NCBI GenBank assembly: GCA_963978545.1
Contig: OZ021729.1
Location: 88,070,466-88,134,465, forward strand
Direction of reading: 5' to 3'
DNA from: Linyphia triangularis
Lineage: Eukaryota > Arthropoda > Arachnida > Araneae > Linyphiidae
DNA: 64,000 nucleotides
Below the pieces are notes generated by a model, which was not told the origin of the DNA, ran no database searches, and saw only the letters and a list, made by a program, of their open reading frames with translations. Made by a program: the position numbers and the translations under genes. This document shows, in pieces, positions 9,416 to 30,699 of this stretch; the stretch's first letter is position 1; the number at the start of each line of letters is the position of its first letter.

Positions 9416-12161
9416 GGTATACGTATAGGTTTCAAATCGCAAAAATTGGTGAAAATTGCCATTTTTTTTTTAATTGTCCTAAAATATGCGCCAAACCTTT
9501 AGCTAACAAGACATATCAAGATTGTAAAAAAAATCGCTATAATAAAAAAGTTTCAACACTTCTTCTAAATGTTGCTTGCAAAAAAAATTAGTTTCGTTTT
9601 AGCATATTCTTAGGCCTAATCGCTATTTTAGCAGATATTTCAATTTTTAAACCCTAATTAATAATTATTTTAAAAGCTTTTTTTTTAAGTTTTAATTCAC
9701 AACTAGCAACAGAGTTTAACTGTAACTGTATATCTGACTATAATTGTTTACAATCGTTTATTTACACGCTATCATATATCTTCACAATTCATCTTCAATT
9801 TACTCATTTTACCTGAAAACCATCCAAAATGGGCTCTAAAGTTCGAAGTAGACGCACTAAAAAAAGAGTTTTTGTTTTTAATCAATTTAAAAAAGCAAAA
9901 GAATCGGCAAATGTTCCAGTTCCTGAAAAGTCTGCTGAACCGAAATCTGCATCGCAAAATAAACTGAATAACCATATATCTAATGCACCTGCAAAGGATT
10001 CTCATTCTAAGAGTTTTATTATAGACTTAGACTGTTTCAGCATTCTTCTTTCCCAACTTTACTGTCCAGAATGCAATGCCAAGGAATTAGTAATCGAAGA
10101 AAATCCAAACAACAGAATTGGTTGTTCTGCAGAACTCAATCTGCTTTGCAGTAACTGTGGATTTATTAGTGCACCATGCTCAACGTCTAAGAAAACAGGG
10201 CACATATTTGATGTGAATCGTAGACTTGTTTACGCAATGAGACAACTTGGCTGCGGATATAACGAAGCCAGCCACTTCTTGAATGTTATGAACTTGCCTC
10301 CACCACCAAGTCCCTCAGCTTATAATAGTCATACTAAGTCACTGCTCACCGTTGTGAAAGGACTTTCTGAAGAAACTATGATCACAGCAGCATTTCGTGT
10401 CCGAAAGAAAAATAGTTCTTCAGACTGTGGCGCTTCCATCGACGGGACATGGCAGAAAAGGGGATTCTCTTCGTTGAATGGCGTAGTTACTGCTGTCTCC
10501 ATCGACACCGGCGAAGTCCTTGACGTGGAAGTAATGAGCAAAGTTTGTCATGGTTGTCGAAAGTGGAATTCTAAAGACAAGTCGAGTACCCGCTACAATT
10601 CCTGGAAAGCAAATCATGTGTGCCCAATTAACTATGAGGGATCATCTGGTGGTATGGAGCCTGTCGGTGCTGGAAGAATTTTCGAAAGGTCCAAGCTCAC
10701 AAAAGGGTTGGCCTACACACAATTTTACGGAGACGGGGACAGTAAAAGTTATTCGGCTGTCGTCGAACTCAACCCTTATCCTGGAAAGATCATTGTCAAA
10801 AAAGAATGTGTAGGTCACTACCAAAAAAGGTTGGGGACTGCTCTGCGAAAGTTGAAAAAAAGTCATCGAGGGATCGGAGGGCAAGGAAAGCTGACAGACA
10901 AGAAAATTGATAAAATGCAGAACTATTTTGGAATGGCACTGCGTAACAACACCTCATCTGTTAAAGAAATGTCAAAGGCAATATGGGCAACGTTTTACCA
11001 TCTGAGTGCAAAAGATACGCATCCTCTTCACACCAAATGCCCGACGGGAAAAGACAGTTGGTGTACTTACCAGCGTGCCAAAGCTGCGGGAAATCTTACA
11101 CTAAGTAAGTACAAACACCAGGGTGGCTTGCCATTGACACTTCTGAAAGTCATTAAGCCAGTGTACCAGCGACTAACAGATCCTACAATGCTTGAGAAGT
11201 GCTTACATGGAATGACCCAAAATGCAAACGAGAGTTTCCACAGCCTGATTTGGAAGCGATGTCCAAAAAGCAAATTTGCTGGGTCCAATGTCGTTAAGCT
11301 CGCCACCTATGATGCTGTAATGCACTTCAATGCAGGTTCCAAAACCGAACTAGAGCTTATGAAAAGATTAAACATTGCTCCTGGACATTTCATGACCACA
11401 GGACTCGAACAAAAGGACGAATTGCGTATTTCGGAGAGCATTCGCCAATCCACACCGCAGCAGAAGAAGCGACGCAAATGTTTGAGAGGTCTCAAAAAGC
11501 AAAAACAATATAAAAACAGCACCAAAGAAGGAAAGCCCTATGATGGAGGAGCATATTAAATTCTAAATATATAATAATTAATACAATATTAACAGTTTTT
11601 TTTATCAAAAATGCCATTTTAAAACTTTAAACTTGTTTTTCTCAGAACGTAGTTTTTTCTATTTGGCATTTCATTCAAACAGTAATAACTCCAGTTTAAA
11701 TAATATTTTTTTTAATTTGTTTTTTGCTGTACAATCTGCATACATTGTTGAATGTTTTGACCCTAAATACTAAGTGATTGGTAAAGAAATATATTTTTAA
11801 TAGAATTTTAAAAATAAGATTTCGTATAAAAAACATGGATTTTTCTCATGCATTCAGCTAAAGCAAGATATCACAAAATATACACACTGTATAATTATGT
11901 TTTTAGGGTCAAAACATAGAGCAGAGTATTCCACATTATTTAACACCAATATTGTATCTGTGGGTGAATTAGATTTTTTGTAATTACCGTTCAAAATTAG
12001 CCTAATTAATACAATTAATGTTAATTAATTAATAAAATTGAAGATTAAAAAAATATATATATATTGGAAAAATTTAAAAAGATAATGTACTTCACATTGT
12101 GCAAAAGTCTTATTTTTAAATTGAAAATTAAAAAAAAAATGTTGAAACCTATACGTACGCC
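9416..12161 (+). mobile_element. Complete Kolobok-type DNA transposon
   Basis: This 2,746-bp element is flanked by the target duplication TTAA (9412-9415 and 12162-12165). Its terminal inverted repeats read GGTATACGTATAGGTTTCAA at the left and, reverse-complemented, GGCGTACGTATAGGTTTCAA at the right. It encloses one uninterrupted transposase gene (9829-11559). TTAA duplications and a zinc-ribbon plus DDE enzyme are characteristic of the Kolobok superfamily. Intact frame and clear ends suggest recent activity. A deleted relative lies at 20295-20998. Confidence 0.9.
9829..11559 (+). CDS. Kolobok/Mutator-like-domain DDE transposase
   Basis: An intact intronless 576-residue protein with no stop or frameshift. 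Order of features: a basic, disordered N terminus (residues 1-60, RSRRTKKR); a zinc-ribbon with CPEC at 79-82 and CSNC at 107-110; then the RNase H-like catalytic core. Likely catalytic acids are D205 (SIDGTWQKRG), D302 or D304 (FYGDGDSKSY) and E468 (NANESFHS). A second metal-site candidate is CHGC at 240-243 with HVC at 263-265. The C terminus is Lys/Arg-rich. It resembles the family annotated as 'Mutator-like transposase domain' in many arthropods. The expected role is cut-and-paste transposition of its own element, acting on the TIRs and TTAA targets in the nucleus. The start is the first ATG of the frame, 413 bp inside the left end. Domestication is unlikely because both TIRs remain. Confidence 0.92.
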   Translation: MGSKVRSRRTKKRVFVFNQFKKAKESANVPVPEKSAEPKSASQNKLNNHISNAPAKDSHSKSFIIDLDCFSILLSQLYCPECNAKELVIEENPNNRIGCSAELNLLCSNCGFISAPCSTSKKTGHIFDVNRRLVYAMRQLGCGYNEASHFLNVMNLPPPPSPSAYNSHTKSLLTVVKGLSEETMITAAFRVRKKNSSSDCGASIDGTWQKRGFSSLNGVVTAVSIDTGEVLDVEVMSKVCHGCRKWNSKDKSSTRYNSWKANHVCPINYEGSSGGMEPVGAGRIFERSKLTKGLAYTQFYGDGDSKSYSAVVELNPYPGKIIVKKECVGHYQKRLGTALRKLKKSHRGIGGQGKLTDKKIDKMQNYFGMALRNNTSSVKEMSKAIWATFYHLSAKDTHPLHTKCPTGKDSWCTYQRAKAAGNLTLSKYKHQGGLPLTLLKVIKPVYQRLTDPTMLEKCLHGMTQNANESFHSLIWKRCPKSKFAGSNVVKLATYDAVMHFNAGSKTELELMKRLNIAPGHFMTTGLEQKDELRISESIRQSTPQQKKRRKCLRGLKKQKQYKNSTKEGKPYDGGAY

Positions 12162-25349: not shown

Positions 25350-25790
25350 AATTGAGTAATAATATTTCTTTTAAAAAACATATAAGGAACGAATGTAATA
25401 ATGACGTCTGAGTTGTTAGAGAAATTTTCATTTCTTATATATTAAATTTTAAAGATGCTTGTATACAGGCCTAGACTGTCTCTATGAGGTGTGTTTAAAA
25501 CATTATAAAACTGTTTGTTGAAATTACATGTTTGTGTTAGGTAGGGGAGATAATAAACTTACTAAAACCTAACCCTACATTTATAAGATATTACAGTAAA
25601 GCATCGTTTATACCAAAACAAATTTGGATCCGAGAGTTTTCGGAAAACCAGGATTATAAGAGGAGTATGAAAGAAAGAAACTGTGATATTAAACACAATA
25701 TTGTGTGCATTTTGTCGTCTTACAAGTAACCTTACATTAAATAATACTACATTAAAATAGGCCTAAAGTTTAGAAAAGAAGCCCACGTTT
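25350..25790 (-). repeat. Dispersed segment, inverted partner of 27505-27920
   Basis: About 430 bp is present in opposite orientation at 27505-27920, inside the 27320-30387 element. Shared blocks: CAGGCCTAGACTGTCTCTAT, ACTCCTCTTATAATCCTGG-type sequence, CAGTAAAGCATCG and TGTCGTCTTACAAGTAACC. It may be a fragment of another copy of that element. It has no gene. Confidence 0.75.
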
Positions 25791-27311
25791 TTTTTTTTTT
25801 TAATTTACAGACATGAACGGTTGATTGGTATTCGGATAATAGATGTTTTACTATATTTCAACGCATTTGCAATGTTTAAATTTAATTCAAAAATATTTAT
25901 CAAAGAAATGCTTTCCTTAAAGAAACCTTATGTCAATGTTCGACAAGAGTTTTGTGCAACAAAGATGAATTTGAGTAATCCAATTACAAAGCCAGTTATG
26001 TACAATACACTTGAACTGTGTTTGATGGAGAAACGAAACCTCTTTTATTTCCCAAACGGTTTTTCACAATCTTTTTTTTTTTTTTTTAATTCTTCACAAC
26101 ATTAAGCAGAAGGATTTGTATCGAAAGCTCTTCGGAATAAAATTTATTAAGGCGAGAGAATATTAGATAATTTTGTGTTGATTGGATTTTGTGTTGATTT
26201 TGTGATTAGATTTTGTGTTGAATTTTCACAAGAAAATTCAACACAAAGTTAATCTTTGTTTATTTCGAACATTTTCCACTTACTGCTTAACGTTAAAAGT
26301 GGTCAACTCAGATAAAGCAAGAAACATTCGACGCATGCGCACTTACAAAATAATCTCCGACACTAATAACGAAAGAAAAAAAAAGTGAAGCCTTCAATTT
26401 TTACTTGGATCGAGTTTATATCAACCTCTTCCCCATTGCTCCTTACACGGGGTAACTCACAACCTTTCATAAAAAGTATAGCTTAATAATTCAGCTTACA
26501 TCTCTTCTTTTTTTGAAGAAAAACACCGAAAAAACACATCAGCACAAGATATAAAGTTCTGCTTGTTTTATTTATTGCCATCTGGAAGAAACTATAATTT
26601 TTTTTTTTTTCTTTCTTGAGCTTCCATACCCAATCCATCACTGAAGACAGCTGACAATCTGGATTTCCTCTCATTCCAGTATCGGCCCCGGATTGATTTT
26701 AATCTATACAACTATCCAGAAACTTGGAGTTTCCCCGGAGAAGAAGGAAAAAAAAAAAGGATAGCTAGAGAAGAAAAAAAAATGTGGCTCCTGAGAAAAG
26801 GCTAGGCGCGGATTTAGTCCTGGAGTGATCGAGTTCCTTTGGTAAAAAAGTTGAAATTGTGTGTGGCAGTGTATAAAAATAGTTTTATTACCTCTATAAA
26901 GAACGTTTGGAGCGCAATGCGATCGCAGAGGAGATGTATTTAGGTGCGTTATTCATATTTCGGCTTTTCTTAGGAACTAAATTATAATTCACTTTTGAAA
27001 AATTGATTTCTCGCATGTTTAAGGTTAAAAAGTAAGCTGAAATAAAAGGGCTAGTTGAAAAGGTAAAATCAAAACGCAGAATTTCAAGCAACTAAAATAC
27101 ATTCCTTGATGGCTAAGTTACTTTAATTAATCGCAAGATGAAATTTAGAGAGTAACATGATATATTTGCAACATTACCTATTTACAAAAGAAGCGCCTAC
27201 ATAACTGACTCCTTACATGAGGAAAAAACTAACCATATCAAAATGGCGTCATTTTCTGAACATTATCTAATACTCTCTCGCCCAGGGGCTTTTATTTAAT
27301 AACGATAAATG
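25791..27311. other. A+T-rich non-coding stretch
   Basis: Homopolymer runs at 26071-26086 and 26597-26610. A small inverted repeat with ATTTTGTGTTGA / TCAACACAAAG occurs near 26170-26250. No gene or element ends recognised. Confidence 0.5.
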
Positions 27312-27319
27312 TTGTTTAG

Positions 27320-30188
27320 TAGGGCGTGTTGAAAAAACTTTTTTTTTGGAAATTCAAAATTACAAGTTGATAAAAAGTTGTCACTTTGGACACATATTTA
27401 CCAAAAAATGTGAGTTTAGGCCTCCCGGAATGGATCTGAAATTTCATTTTTTTCTTAAAAACGAAGATTTTTAATTAAAAAAAAATTACGCAAAAATTTG
27501 TTTTCAAGTATTATTTTATGTAAGGTTACCTGTAAGACGACAAAATACATACAATACTGTGTTCAATATCGCAGTTTCTTTCTTTCATACTCCTCTTTAT
27601 AATCCTGGTTTTCAGAAAATTCTCGAATTCAAATTTATTTTGGATAACCGATGCTTTACTAATATCTTGGACATGTAGGGTTATGTCTTGATAAGTTTAT
27701 TATCTCACTTACCCAACAAACATATAATGCAACAAACAGTTTTATAAATGTTTTAAACACACCTCATAGAGACAGTCTAGGCCTGTATACAAGCACCTTT
27801 AAAATTTATTATATAAGAAATGGAAAATTCTCTAACAACTTAGACGTCAGTATTACATTCGTTTCATTTTCTTTTATCTTTTTTCGTTTCATTTTCATTT
27901 TCTTTTATTATTACTCAAGTATAAAGTTCAAAATATTAATTAAAAGTAATAAAAAAAATATTAAAAAAAAAAAAAAATATCTGTCATGTAATATTTAGGT
28001 CTCCTGGAATCCACATGAAAACTCGAATTTTTTACCAAATACGAATATATTTTAATTTTCAACCCACCCATTAAGTTAATTTAAATTATTTTATATATAG
28101 TCTAGATATACTAATACTGCATTTTGAAATATTGGAAATATTTTTTTTAATTGGGAATAACTGTAGGGTTACGTGACCCTGAAGACACTTCATGGAAATC
28201 ACGTGATCCTTCGAACGACTCCACTTCCTTCGCCAGTAGTCTCTTAGATCATTATAATAAAAGTATATGTCATTTGTTGATATCTAACGATTTTTTTTTT
28301 ATTTATAACTGGATAGTTAAGTCAAGTGTCATTTTATTATCATGAGTAAAAAAACGTATTATACAAGAAAAACTACTGATGCCCCGATAATCGGTCAACC
28401 TGTTGATGCTTTGCCTTCTAAAGTTGATTTGCTATGTTATTTTGAATGCGTGAGAAATCAACTGAAATCTGAGCAATGTCATCAAACAGAAAAGAAGTGA
28501 ATTGCAAAAGAAGTGTGGCTCGAAAGCTAGAAGAAATTTGGAAGAAGGCTTCCATTCCGGTTTCAAGCATGAAAAATATTATTTTTATGATTTCAAAACT
28601 ACACGAGCGATGTGAAAAGATTTAAAAAATATCAGTGTGTAACTCAAAAAATGCCATGAGTTTCAAAACGGAAAGTTGATTTTAAGGAGTTGTTGAGCAC
28701 CGATCAGAAATATATGTGGCAAATATGCTAGGCTGTAACTAAGAGGCGAATGCCCCCAAGGATTAGCAAGCAGAAACCCTGAAAACATTTCCCATGCAAA
28801 ATGGCTGACAATGGCAAATCGAATTTTACGTTTGTACATCGCATCAATTGATCAAATCCCTCAGTTGAAAAAATTAGTCGAGTTTGTCGTGAAAGTTTAT
28901 GCTTTCCCGTGATTTACTATACAATGCCAACCAAAAATTATTTATGCATATCAACACTATTTTAAGATAGTCCAAAGGATCAAGTACTTGGAAGATTTTA
29001 AAGCTGTTGTTCAATCACTTCTATAGAGAAATGCTTGTATGGTACACACAAATCATTGGGAATGTTAATTTGGGAATGTTGTTTGATTCACGTAAACATA
29101 TTAGATGTCTGGTAAGCAAAAGAATATAAAAATGCTCGACGAAGTTAAAAGCAAAGAGGGTTTTCAAACCACCACAAGCTAATTTTGAGGCAAAGGACTA
29201 TAGAGATATTATTGATTGGCAATCTACAACAGTTACGGAACCACCTCTCTTAAGTGACTTAAGCCAACACGAGCTACAGTTGAAACAGGAACTAGCGATA
29301 GAAAAGAGTTTAAAATTCATTCTCACACACAAGCAGTGGAAAGATTTGTAAATGAGATTACGGAAGATTCTAAGAGCGTTTGAACGAGATGGGTTCATTC
29401 GATCAAGATTGCTGGACAGAAAATACCTTCCAAAGTTTGAAACGAAATGTCACTTCACATCTGCAACTCTAACAGTCCAGGAGTAAATATCAAGCAAGAT
29501 CTCATTTTCTATAATGATGAAATATAAAACATTTTAGAAACAATAATGAACCTCATCTAACCTTTTTTATATTAAGCTTATTGTAAATTACTTACTATAA
29601 AATTTCCTCTATAACCAGTCTAATAAAAAAATGTAGTTGCAGGCTAAGAGAGGAACTCGTAACTGTGATGCTACATACATGTGAAATAATCCTATTCCGA
29701 GAAGAGAGGAGGAGGGGAGAGAAGTGAAATGAAAGCAACATAACATTCTAAAATGTTCATTCAATTATTAAGATCAAGTAGATATTGTAACCAAAATACA
29801 TTTTCAAAGTTGATGTTTTCATAATTGCTATCTTTATTTCTTTGGAAAATAAAATTCTTTTTAATTTTCAATTTGATTTCGTTTTATTTCTCTTACTTCA
29901 TAAATAGGCTTAATTTCATAAAATAAAAAAAATAAGTTGGGCTTAGTAAACAGGCAAACTTGTTTCTTTTTAAATACTTTGTATTTGTATAGTTACAATT
30001 AAATAGTTCATGGACAAAAGTAGATTGGATGTTAATGAAACCGTCAACAAAAAAAAAAGCCCTTACTTTTGCGAAAAATTTATAATTTTACTGCTAATCC
30101 GAAATACGACTTGACATATATAGGTTTTTTTTTTTGTTTTTTTTAAACTTTACATTTTTGTACAAACAAAATTTTACTTTAGTTTTAC

Positions 30189-30220
<32 letters not shown>

Positions 30221-30387
30221 AAATCTTCGTTTTTAAAAAAAAAAATGAAATTTTAGATCCATTCCGGGAGACTTAAATATTTTTAAATTTAACTAAAAAA
30301 TTTTTGGTGAATATGCGATACCATAGTGACAACTTTTTATCAACTTGAAATTTTGAATTTCTAAAAAAAGTTTTTTCTTACGCCCTA
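27320..30387 (+). mobile_element. 3.07-kb hAT-like transposon with ~170-bp TIRs and 8-bp TSD
   Basis: Long inverted ends (about 27320-27485 and 30220-30387) start TAGGGCGT. They share TTCAAAATTWCAAGTTGATA, AAAAGTTGTCACT, TCCCGGAATGGATCT and AAAACGAAGATTTTTAATT. The flanking target duplication is TTGTTTAG, exact, at 27312-27319 and 30388-30395. Between the ends is one decayed intronless gene on the plus strand (28342-29486). Tips beginning TAGGG and 8-bp duplications are hAT-type traits; TIRs this long are unusual for hAT. An extra inverted-end-like block (TTTAGGTCTCCTGGAAT, ~27997) suggests subterminal repeats. Confidence 0.85.
28342..29486 (+). pseudogene. Decayed divergent hAT-like transposase (WLTxANRILRLY / HTQAVER family)
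   Basis: Frames must be switched and stops ignored, so it is dead. N-terminal part from ATG 28342: MSKKTYYTRKTTDAPIIGQP, then KVDLLCYFECVRNQLKSEQ and, in another frame, IWKKASIPVSSMKNIIFMIS. After ~28690 the middle reads LLSTDQKYMWQIC, HAKWLTMANRILRLYIASI, LVEFVVKVYAF, IKYLEDFKAVV. The C-terminal part has YRDIIDWQ, VTEPPLLSDLS, HTQAVERFVNEITEDS and RDGFIRSRLLDRKYLPKFE. I recognise this as an uncharacterised multicopy arthropod protein family whose full members carry a GDN motif and an H-x-NELPLRHL-like motif between these parts. That segment appears deleted here between ~28650 and 28690. The order D ... C/H ... RW-like ... recalls hAT transposases. Family identity is from memory; the transposase role is inferred from the flanking TIRs. 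Confidence 0.7.
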
Positions 30388-30699
30388 TTGTTTAGTCCTA
30401 CAATTTACTGCCTTAACAAATATCATTTGTTATTATATTTTTATTTTAGAGGAATTATTAGATAAATATATAGATCTAATGCTTAACTTACTAGCCATAA
30501 TATGTGGTTTAAAACATACAAATTTGCATACTCAGTATATCAACATTAATAAAAAAAATCATTAAAAGAATTAAAAAAACTAGTTTTTTTTATTATAATT
30601 TAAGAAGAAATTTAATAGAAAACAAACTGGCGTTTCAGCTATAAAGAAACGTGGTGTAAAAAAGCATATTGTTTCTACTTTTCACACCCTTTTCAACGT

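Follow-up and report, generated by a model that had tools for sequence, protein, structure and literature searches.

Hermes, a hAT transposon of Musca domestica, belongs to the Ac group, and excision of hAT elements leaves hairpins on the flanking DNA. P elements make 8-bp duplications, and the terminal inverted repeats (TIRs) of the P superfamily have the tip CA. The target rule of Hermes is nTnnnnAn (PMC10368747), Hermes forms hairpins (PMC2533014), the tips of hAT elements follow the rule [T/C]A[A/G]NG (PMC6027215), the TIRs of BuT2 measure 12 bp and its gene is split into five exons (PMC3942097), and Galileo, a member of the P superfamily, has unusually long TIRs (PMC3688188). Here we describe a decayed transposon at positions 27312 to 30395 of a 64,000-nucleotide stretch of the Linyphia triangularis genome (the window), and the protein family to which its gene remnant belongs. 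With a probability of about 0.9, this family is a divergent hAT-type DDE transposase that works like a hAT transposase. The window copy has the following parts:

27312..27319, no strand: left target site duplication (TSD) TTGTTTAG, identical to 30388-30395
27320..27486, + strand: left TIR with the tip TAGGGCGT, detected by BLAST, like the ends in other copies
27507..27863, + strand: nested interspersed repeat, outside the transposon proper, 89% to 25748-25388 on the opposite strand
28342..28667, + strand: N-terminal coding remnant (P0058 residues 1-114), frame-shifted; tblastn with P0058, 57.8% and 72.5%
28670..28673, + strand: internal-deletion junction, about 1.1 kb of coding core gone, from comparison with copies L042 and L043
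28675..29047, + strand: coding remnant that contains STDQ and, as the RW motif with K in place of R, (K)WLTMANRILRLY
29061..29483, + strand: C-terminal coding remnant with HTQAVER and RDGFIRSRLLDRKYLPKFE; the Glu of HTQAVER is equated with Hermes E572
30206..30387, - strand: right TIR with the tip ACGCCCTA
30388..30395, no strand: right TSD TTGTTTAG

An earlier note on this DNA had reported an exact 8-bp duplication outside inverted ends of about 170 bp, and both were recovered. TTGTTTAG is identical on the two sides, and the TIR arms share 79.5% identity over 185 columns (BLAST), with an alignment score of 223, whereas 400 pairs drawn at random from the window scored at most 62 (mean 21, sd 10). 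The note had also described a single decayed gene with three motifs. The decay and the motifs were found (WLTMANRILRLY at 28802-28837, HTQAVER at 29324-29344, and RDGFIRSRLLDRKYLPKFE at 29385-29441), the motifs being distributed over two reading frames. The note had missed that a coding core is deleted, that the R of RW is K here, and that a repeat is nested in the element. Search with the broken window protein detected 62 proteins, and all 136 tblastn matches from these relatives lie on the + strand between 28342 and 29483, with none in the rest of the window.

Two fuller copies, L042 (C12:52.05 Mb) and L043 (C3:54.37 Mb), are located elsewhere in this genome. The deletion point at 28670/28673 corresponds to 1511/2617 in L042 and 1498/2599 in L043. 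The stretch of L042 that is deleted in the window copy contains the Cys cluster, GCDGT and CxxH, and the first Asp motif is also expected there, judging from the motif order of the family alignment; neither in L042 nor in L043 was FDGRKD found as an exact string. Without this coding core, no functional enzyme can be encoded by the window copy, which also contains frame breaks and the nested repeat of about 360 bp; this repeat recurs inverted at 25388-25748 and is absent from the other loci, L013-L061. The window element is a dead, decayed, internally deleted and non-autonomous copy of a cut-and-paste DNA transposon, and less damaged copies exist in the same genome. No genome match spans the junction as an empty site would (41 matches, two of which are the flanks themselves). 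The left flank, 27170-27295, is a dispersed repeat which stops short of the junction and occurs in at least 39 other places in the genome, 75-81% identical.

All TIR and TSD results come from the genome of Linyphia triangularis (1.35 Gb, 369 contigs). The element DNA has at least 152 matches there (40 of 1,416 candidates scored). Search with the protein gave 10,293 first-look candidates, and eleven copies of 730-782 amino acids (aa) without any stop were found among the 61 that were scored. Eleven out of fourteen near-full-length copies, a set in which some genes are interrupted by one or two stops, are flanked by exact 8-bp duplications immediately next to TIR tips of the TAGGG type or TAGAG/TAAGG, as the earlier note had expected of intact homologues. 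Among the remaining copies, one matches at 6/8 positions, one is unresolvable in an AT repeat, and for one no TIR was seen within 1 kb. In the window subfamily, ten out of seventeen end pairs, including the window, have an exact 8-bp duplication, six at the extrapolated ends and four after shifting one end. The other pairs match at 7/8 in one case, at 6/8 in two, and not at all in four; one of the 6/8 pairs spans 8.5 kb and may join two copies.

Overall, exact duplications were present in 21 of the 31 copies or end pairs examined, and in 21 of the 24 with resolved tips. Left out of these 24 were C14:43.94M, C10:21.59M, C14:40.32M, C3:42.88M, the end pair C2:30.17M/30.18M, and copies G and H of the near-full-length set. 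The kept rows of the window subfamily include six that are exact without a shift and five in which the best match was reached by shifting one end by 1, 2, 2, 4 or 20 bp. For one group of near-full-length copies the tips were picked jointly by TIR tip and flank match, within 25 bp, and in copy A both tips were shifted by 9 bp. Of the lengths 4 to 13, only 8 yielded exact duplications in the 24 pooled rows, and none of 552 swapped pairs used as a control was exact at 8 bp. Similar to Hermes, the duplications follow nTnnnnAn, with T at position 2 in 20/21, A at position 7 in 17/21, and both in 16/21. The tip rule YARNG, or [T/C]A[A/G]NG, which Hermes shares, is obeyed by 44 of 48 tips, the readable ones being TAGGG, TAGAG, TAAGG or decayed forms.

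Several subfamilies were distinguished (tips TAGGGCGT, TAGGGTGGTTCG, TAGGGTGGAACG and TAGAGTGGGCCG), each with its own matching TIR pair at most 1 kb from the same gene. TIR length ranges from about 170 to about 430 bp over the copies; in the five D copies (774 or 770 aa) the TIRs align over 417-422 columns with 89-94% identity. Four 774-aa copies without stops form a subgroup (C1:34.56M, C10:26.15M, C1:79.27M and C4:1.40M), and in three of them the element outside the gene is 94-97% identical pairwise. Copy I, with TAGAGTGG tips, lies near an ACGCCCTA end resembling that of another subfamily, in its upstream flank L086 (C3:20768300-20769300), so subfamilies can sit side by side.

The earlier note had pointed to a multicopy arthropod family annotated as uncharacterized, and the searches agree with this. 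Profile search revealed at least 690 clusters (90% identity, E <= 0.01), a minimum, as only 7,995 candidates were scored and 120 listed. Among the matches listed, all named sources are arthropods (Diabrotica, Phaedon, Spodoptera, Aphis, Araneus, Daktulosphaira, Amyelois, Diatraea and Colias), the records are named 'uncharacterized', 'unnamed' or 'hypothetical', two from Aphis also 'DUF4371 domain-containing', and no protein bears a precomputed Pfam domain. Full-length relatives have about 725 aa, compared to 612 aa in Hermes. The 'GDN' motif that the note had named proved to be GCDGT, which is present in 17 aligned members (GSDGT in one). The hAT-like motif order that it had proposed holds for the family: D, D, CxxH, RW and E hardly vary among members and parallel Hermes D180, D248, C265xxH268, R318, W319 and E572. 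The D, D, R-W and E residues are all five present in 138 of 140 members, and the remaining two are gapped at E. No sequence alignment underlies the equivalence to the Hermes residues, which was drawn from the order, the secondary structure and the fold match.

Members also possess a near-invariant N-terminal CxC...CxC cluster, at P0003 residues 129, 131, 137 and 139 (129/129, 129/130, 129/130 and 130/130 of the members with a residue there), which is a possible metal site. Neither BED nor hATC (PF05699) was matched in a scan of 17 members, and for 54 members neither is one of the 25 families displayed out of 37, whereas all 13 Hermes-like proteins compared bear hATC. In the latter scan, PF14372 hAT-like_RNase-H appeared in 2/54 members with a best E-value of 0.028, and COR-A in 6/54 with a best E-value of 0.00055, taken as chance.

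In the predicted structures, an RNase H fold with a helical insertion like that of Hermes is present. Hermes is the strongest match among the chains compared (997 and 998 for the two models), and both models align as far as Hermes residue 609 of 612. ISCth4, a bacterial insertion sequence, shares the RNase H transposase fold and has the best Foldseek E-value, yet a lower Z (11.4 and 11.3) than the Hermes match. The divergent hAT-type transposase proposed by the note is thus supported by the TIRs and TSDs, the Hermes-like predicted fold and the motif order.

Several observations weigh against this assignment. The TIRs exceed the usual hAT length (17 bp in Hermes), although short TIRs do not strictly define the superfamily. 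No BED domain was seen in the scans of 17 and 54 members, 10 of the 31 copies or end pairs have no exact duplication, and every TIR and TSD test concerns one genome. Moreover, profile-profile comparison with Hermes-like hATs was not significant, and remained so in variants of hhalign for which 140 members of the family and 12 of hAT were trimmed to the core; a non-significant local match covered the region of the catalytic Glu in one comparison set and fell elsewhere in the core-only variant.

The family could also be a separate superfamily beside hAT, with a common RNase H ancestor and a like mechanism, a reading that differs from ours in membership only. The missing sequence-level link to hAT, the lack of a BED match among the families shown, the long TIRs and the N-terminal Cys cluster speak for it. 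Nevertheless, we consider it unlikely, as the target pattern, the tip rule, and the five residues with CxxH are all as in hAT, and the predicted fold follows Hermes almost to its last residue. A place inside hAT is probable, because target, tips, residues and fold agree with it, the two exceptions being recognisability by profile and TIR length.

Membership of the P superfamily, or a Galileo-like transposase, is very improbable. P elements make 8-bp duplications too, Galileo has long TIRs, and Foldseek matched the P-element transposase (E 8.1e-5). However, this structural match is weaker than that of Hermes, the P element is not among the 50 rows shown for model 1, the readable tips are not CA, and the target pattern differs. 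On structural comparison the P superfamily was rejected as first choice. That the gene was inserted into, or captured by, an unrelated TIR element could be entertained from the window alone, where another repeat is nested, but it has a negligible chance and was rejected, since several subfamilies with their own matching TIR pairs surround the same gene and eleven near-full-length copies have TIRs with exact TSDs.

For a hAT-type transposase, the mechanism can be proposed by analogy. As in Hermes, the protein would pair both TIRs, and D314, D388 and E691 (P0003 numbering) would cut the element ends with metal ions. Hairpins would be left on the flanking DNA, as in hAT elements in general, and the 3' ends would be joined across an 8-bp stagger, again as in Hermes. 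The long TIRs may be bound by the N-terminal CxC...CxC domain in place of a BED finger. We tentatively suggest, at slightly less than an even chance, that the family is a deep lineage equal in rank to the Ac, Buster and Tip groups, or higher, which binds DNA through an N-terminal Cys-cluster domain of its own, has long TIRs resembling those of foldback elements, and is distributed over beetles, moths, aphids and spiders. It would have been recently mobile in this host, where the subgroup with four stop-free 774-aa copies occurs. Tip group elements (BuT2, Tip100) resemble the family in the 8-bp TSD and the hAT-type element; the short TIRs and five-exon gene reported for BuT2 are unlike the family.

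Scans of viral contigs with the window fragment, A2 and P0011, and of genome contigs with A2, detected no relative. The TIR-tip pattern occurs at 11 loci in viral contigs, none similar (E <= 1e-3) to the element or the 62 proteins. Profile searches of PDB sequences gave no transposase among the matches listed. In the open PubMed Central literature, the motif strings RDGFIRS, HTQAVER, WLTTANRILRLY and WLTTASRILRLY and the name 'Cc8L18.2' were not found. Among the papers listed there, titles and abstract beginnings contained no description of the family; Repbase and Dfam were outside this search, and a prior listing there is possible.

The assignment gives a function to a family that databases call uncharacterized, whose members gene counts may treat as host genes, on a scale of hundreds of clusters and, in one spider genome, thousands of first-look candidates. 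A hAT-type element with long TIRs, in which no BED finger was seen, helps to ask how hAT transposases bind their ends, and the open-frame copies with exact duplications make the family testable. The window encodes a second transposase gene at 9817-11559 (+), a 580-aa open frame matching the Pfam Mutator family PF20700 (E 1.3e-73).
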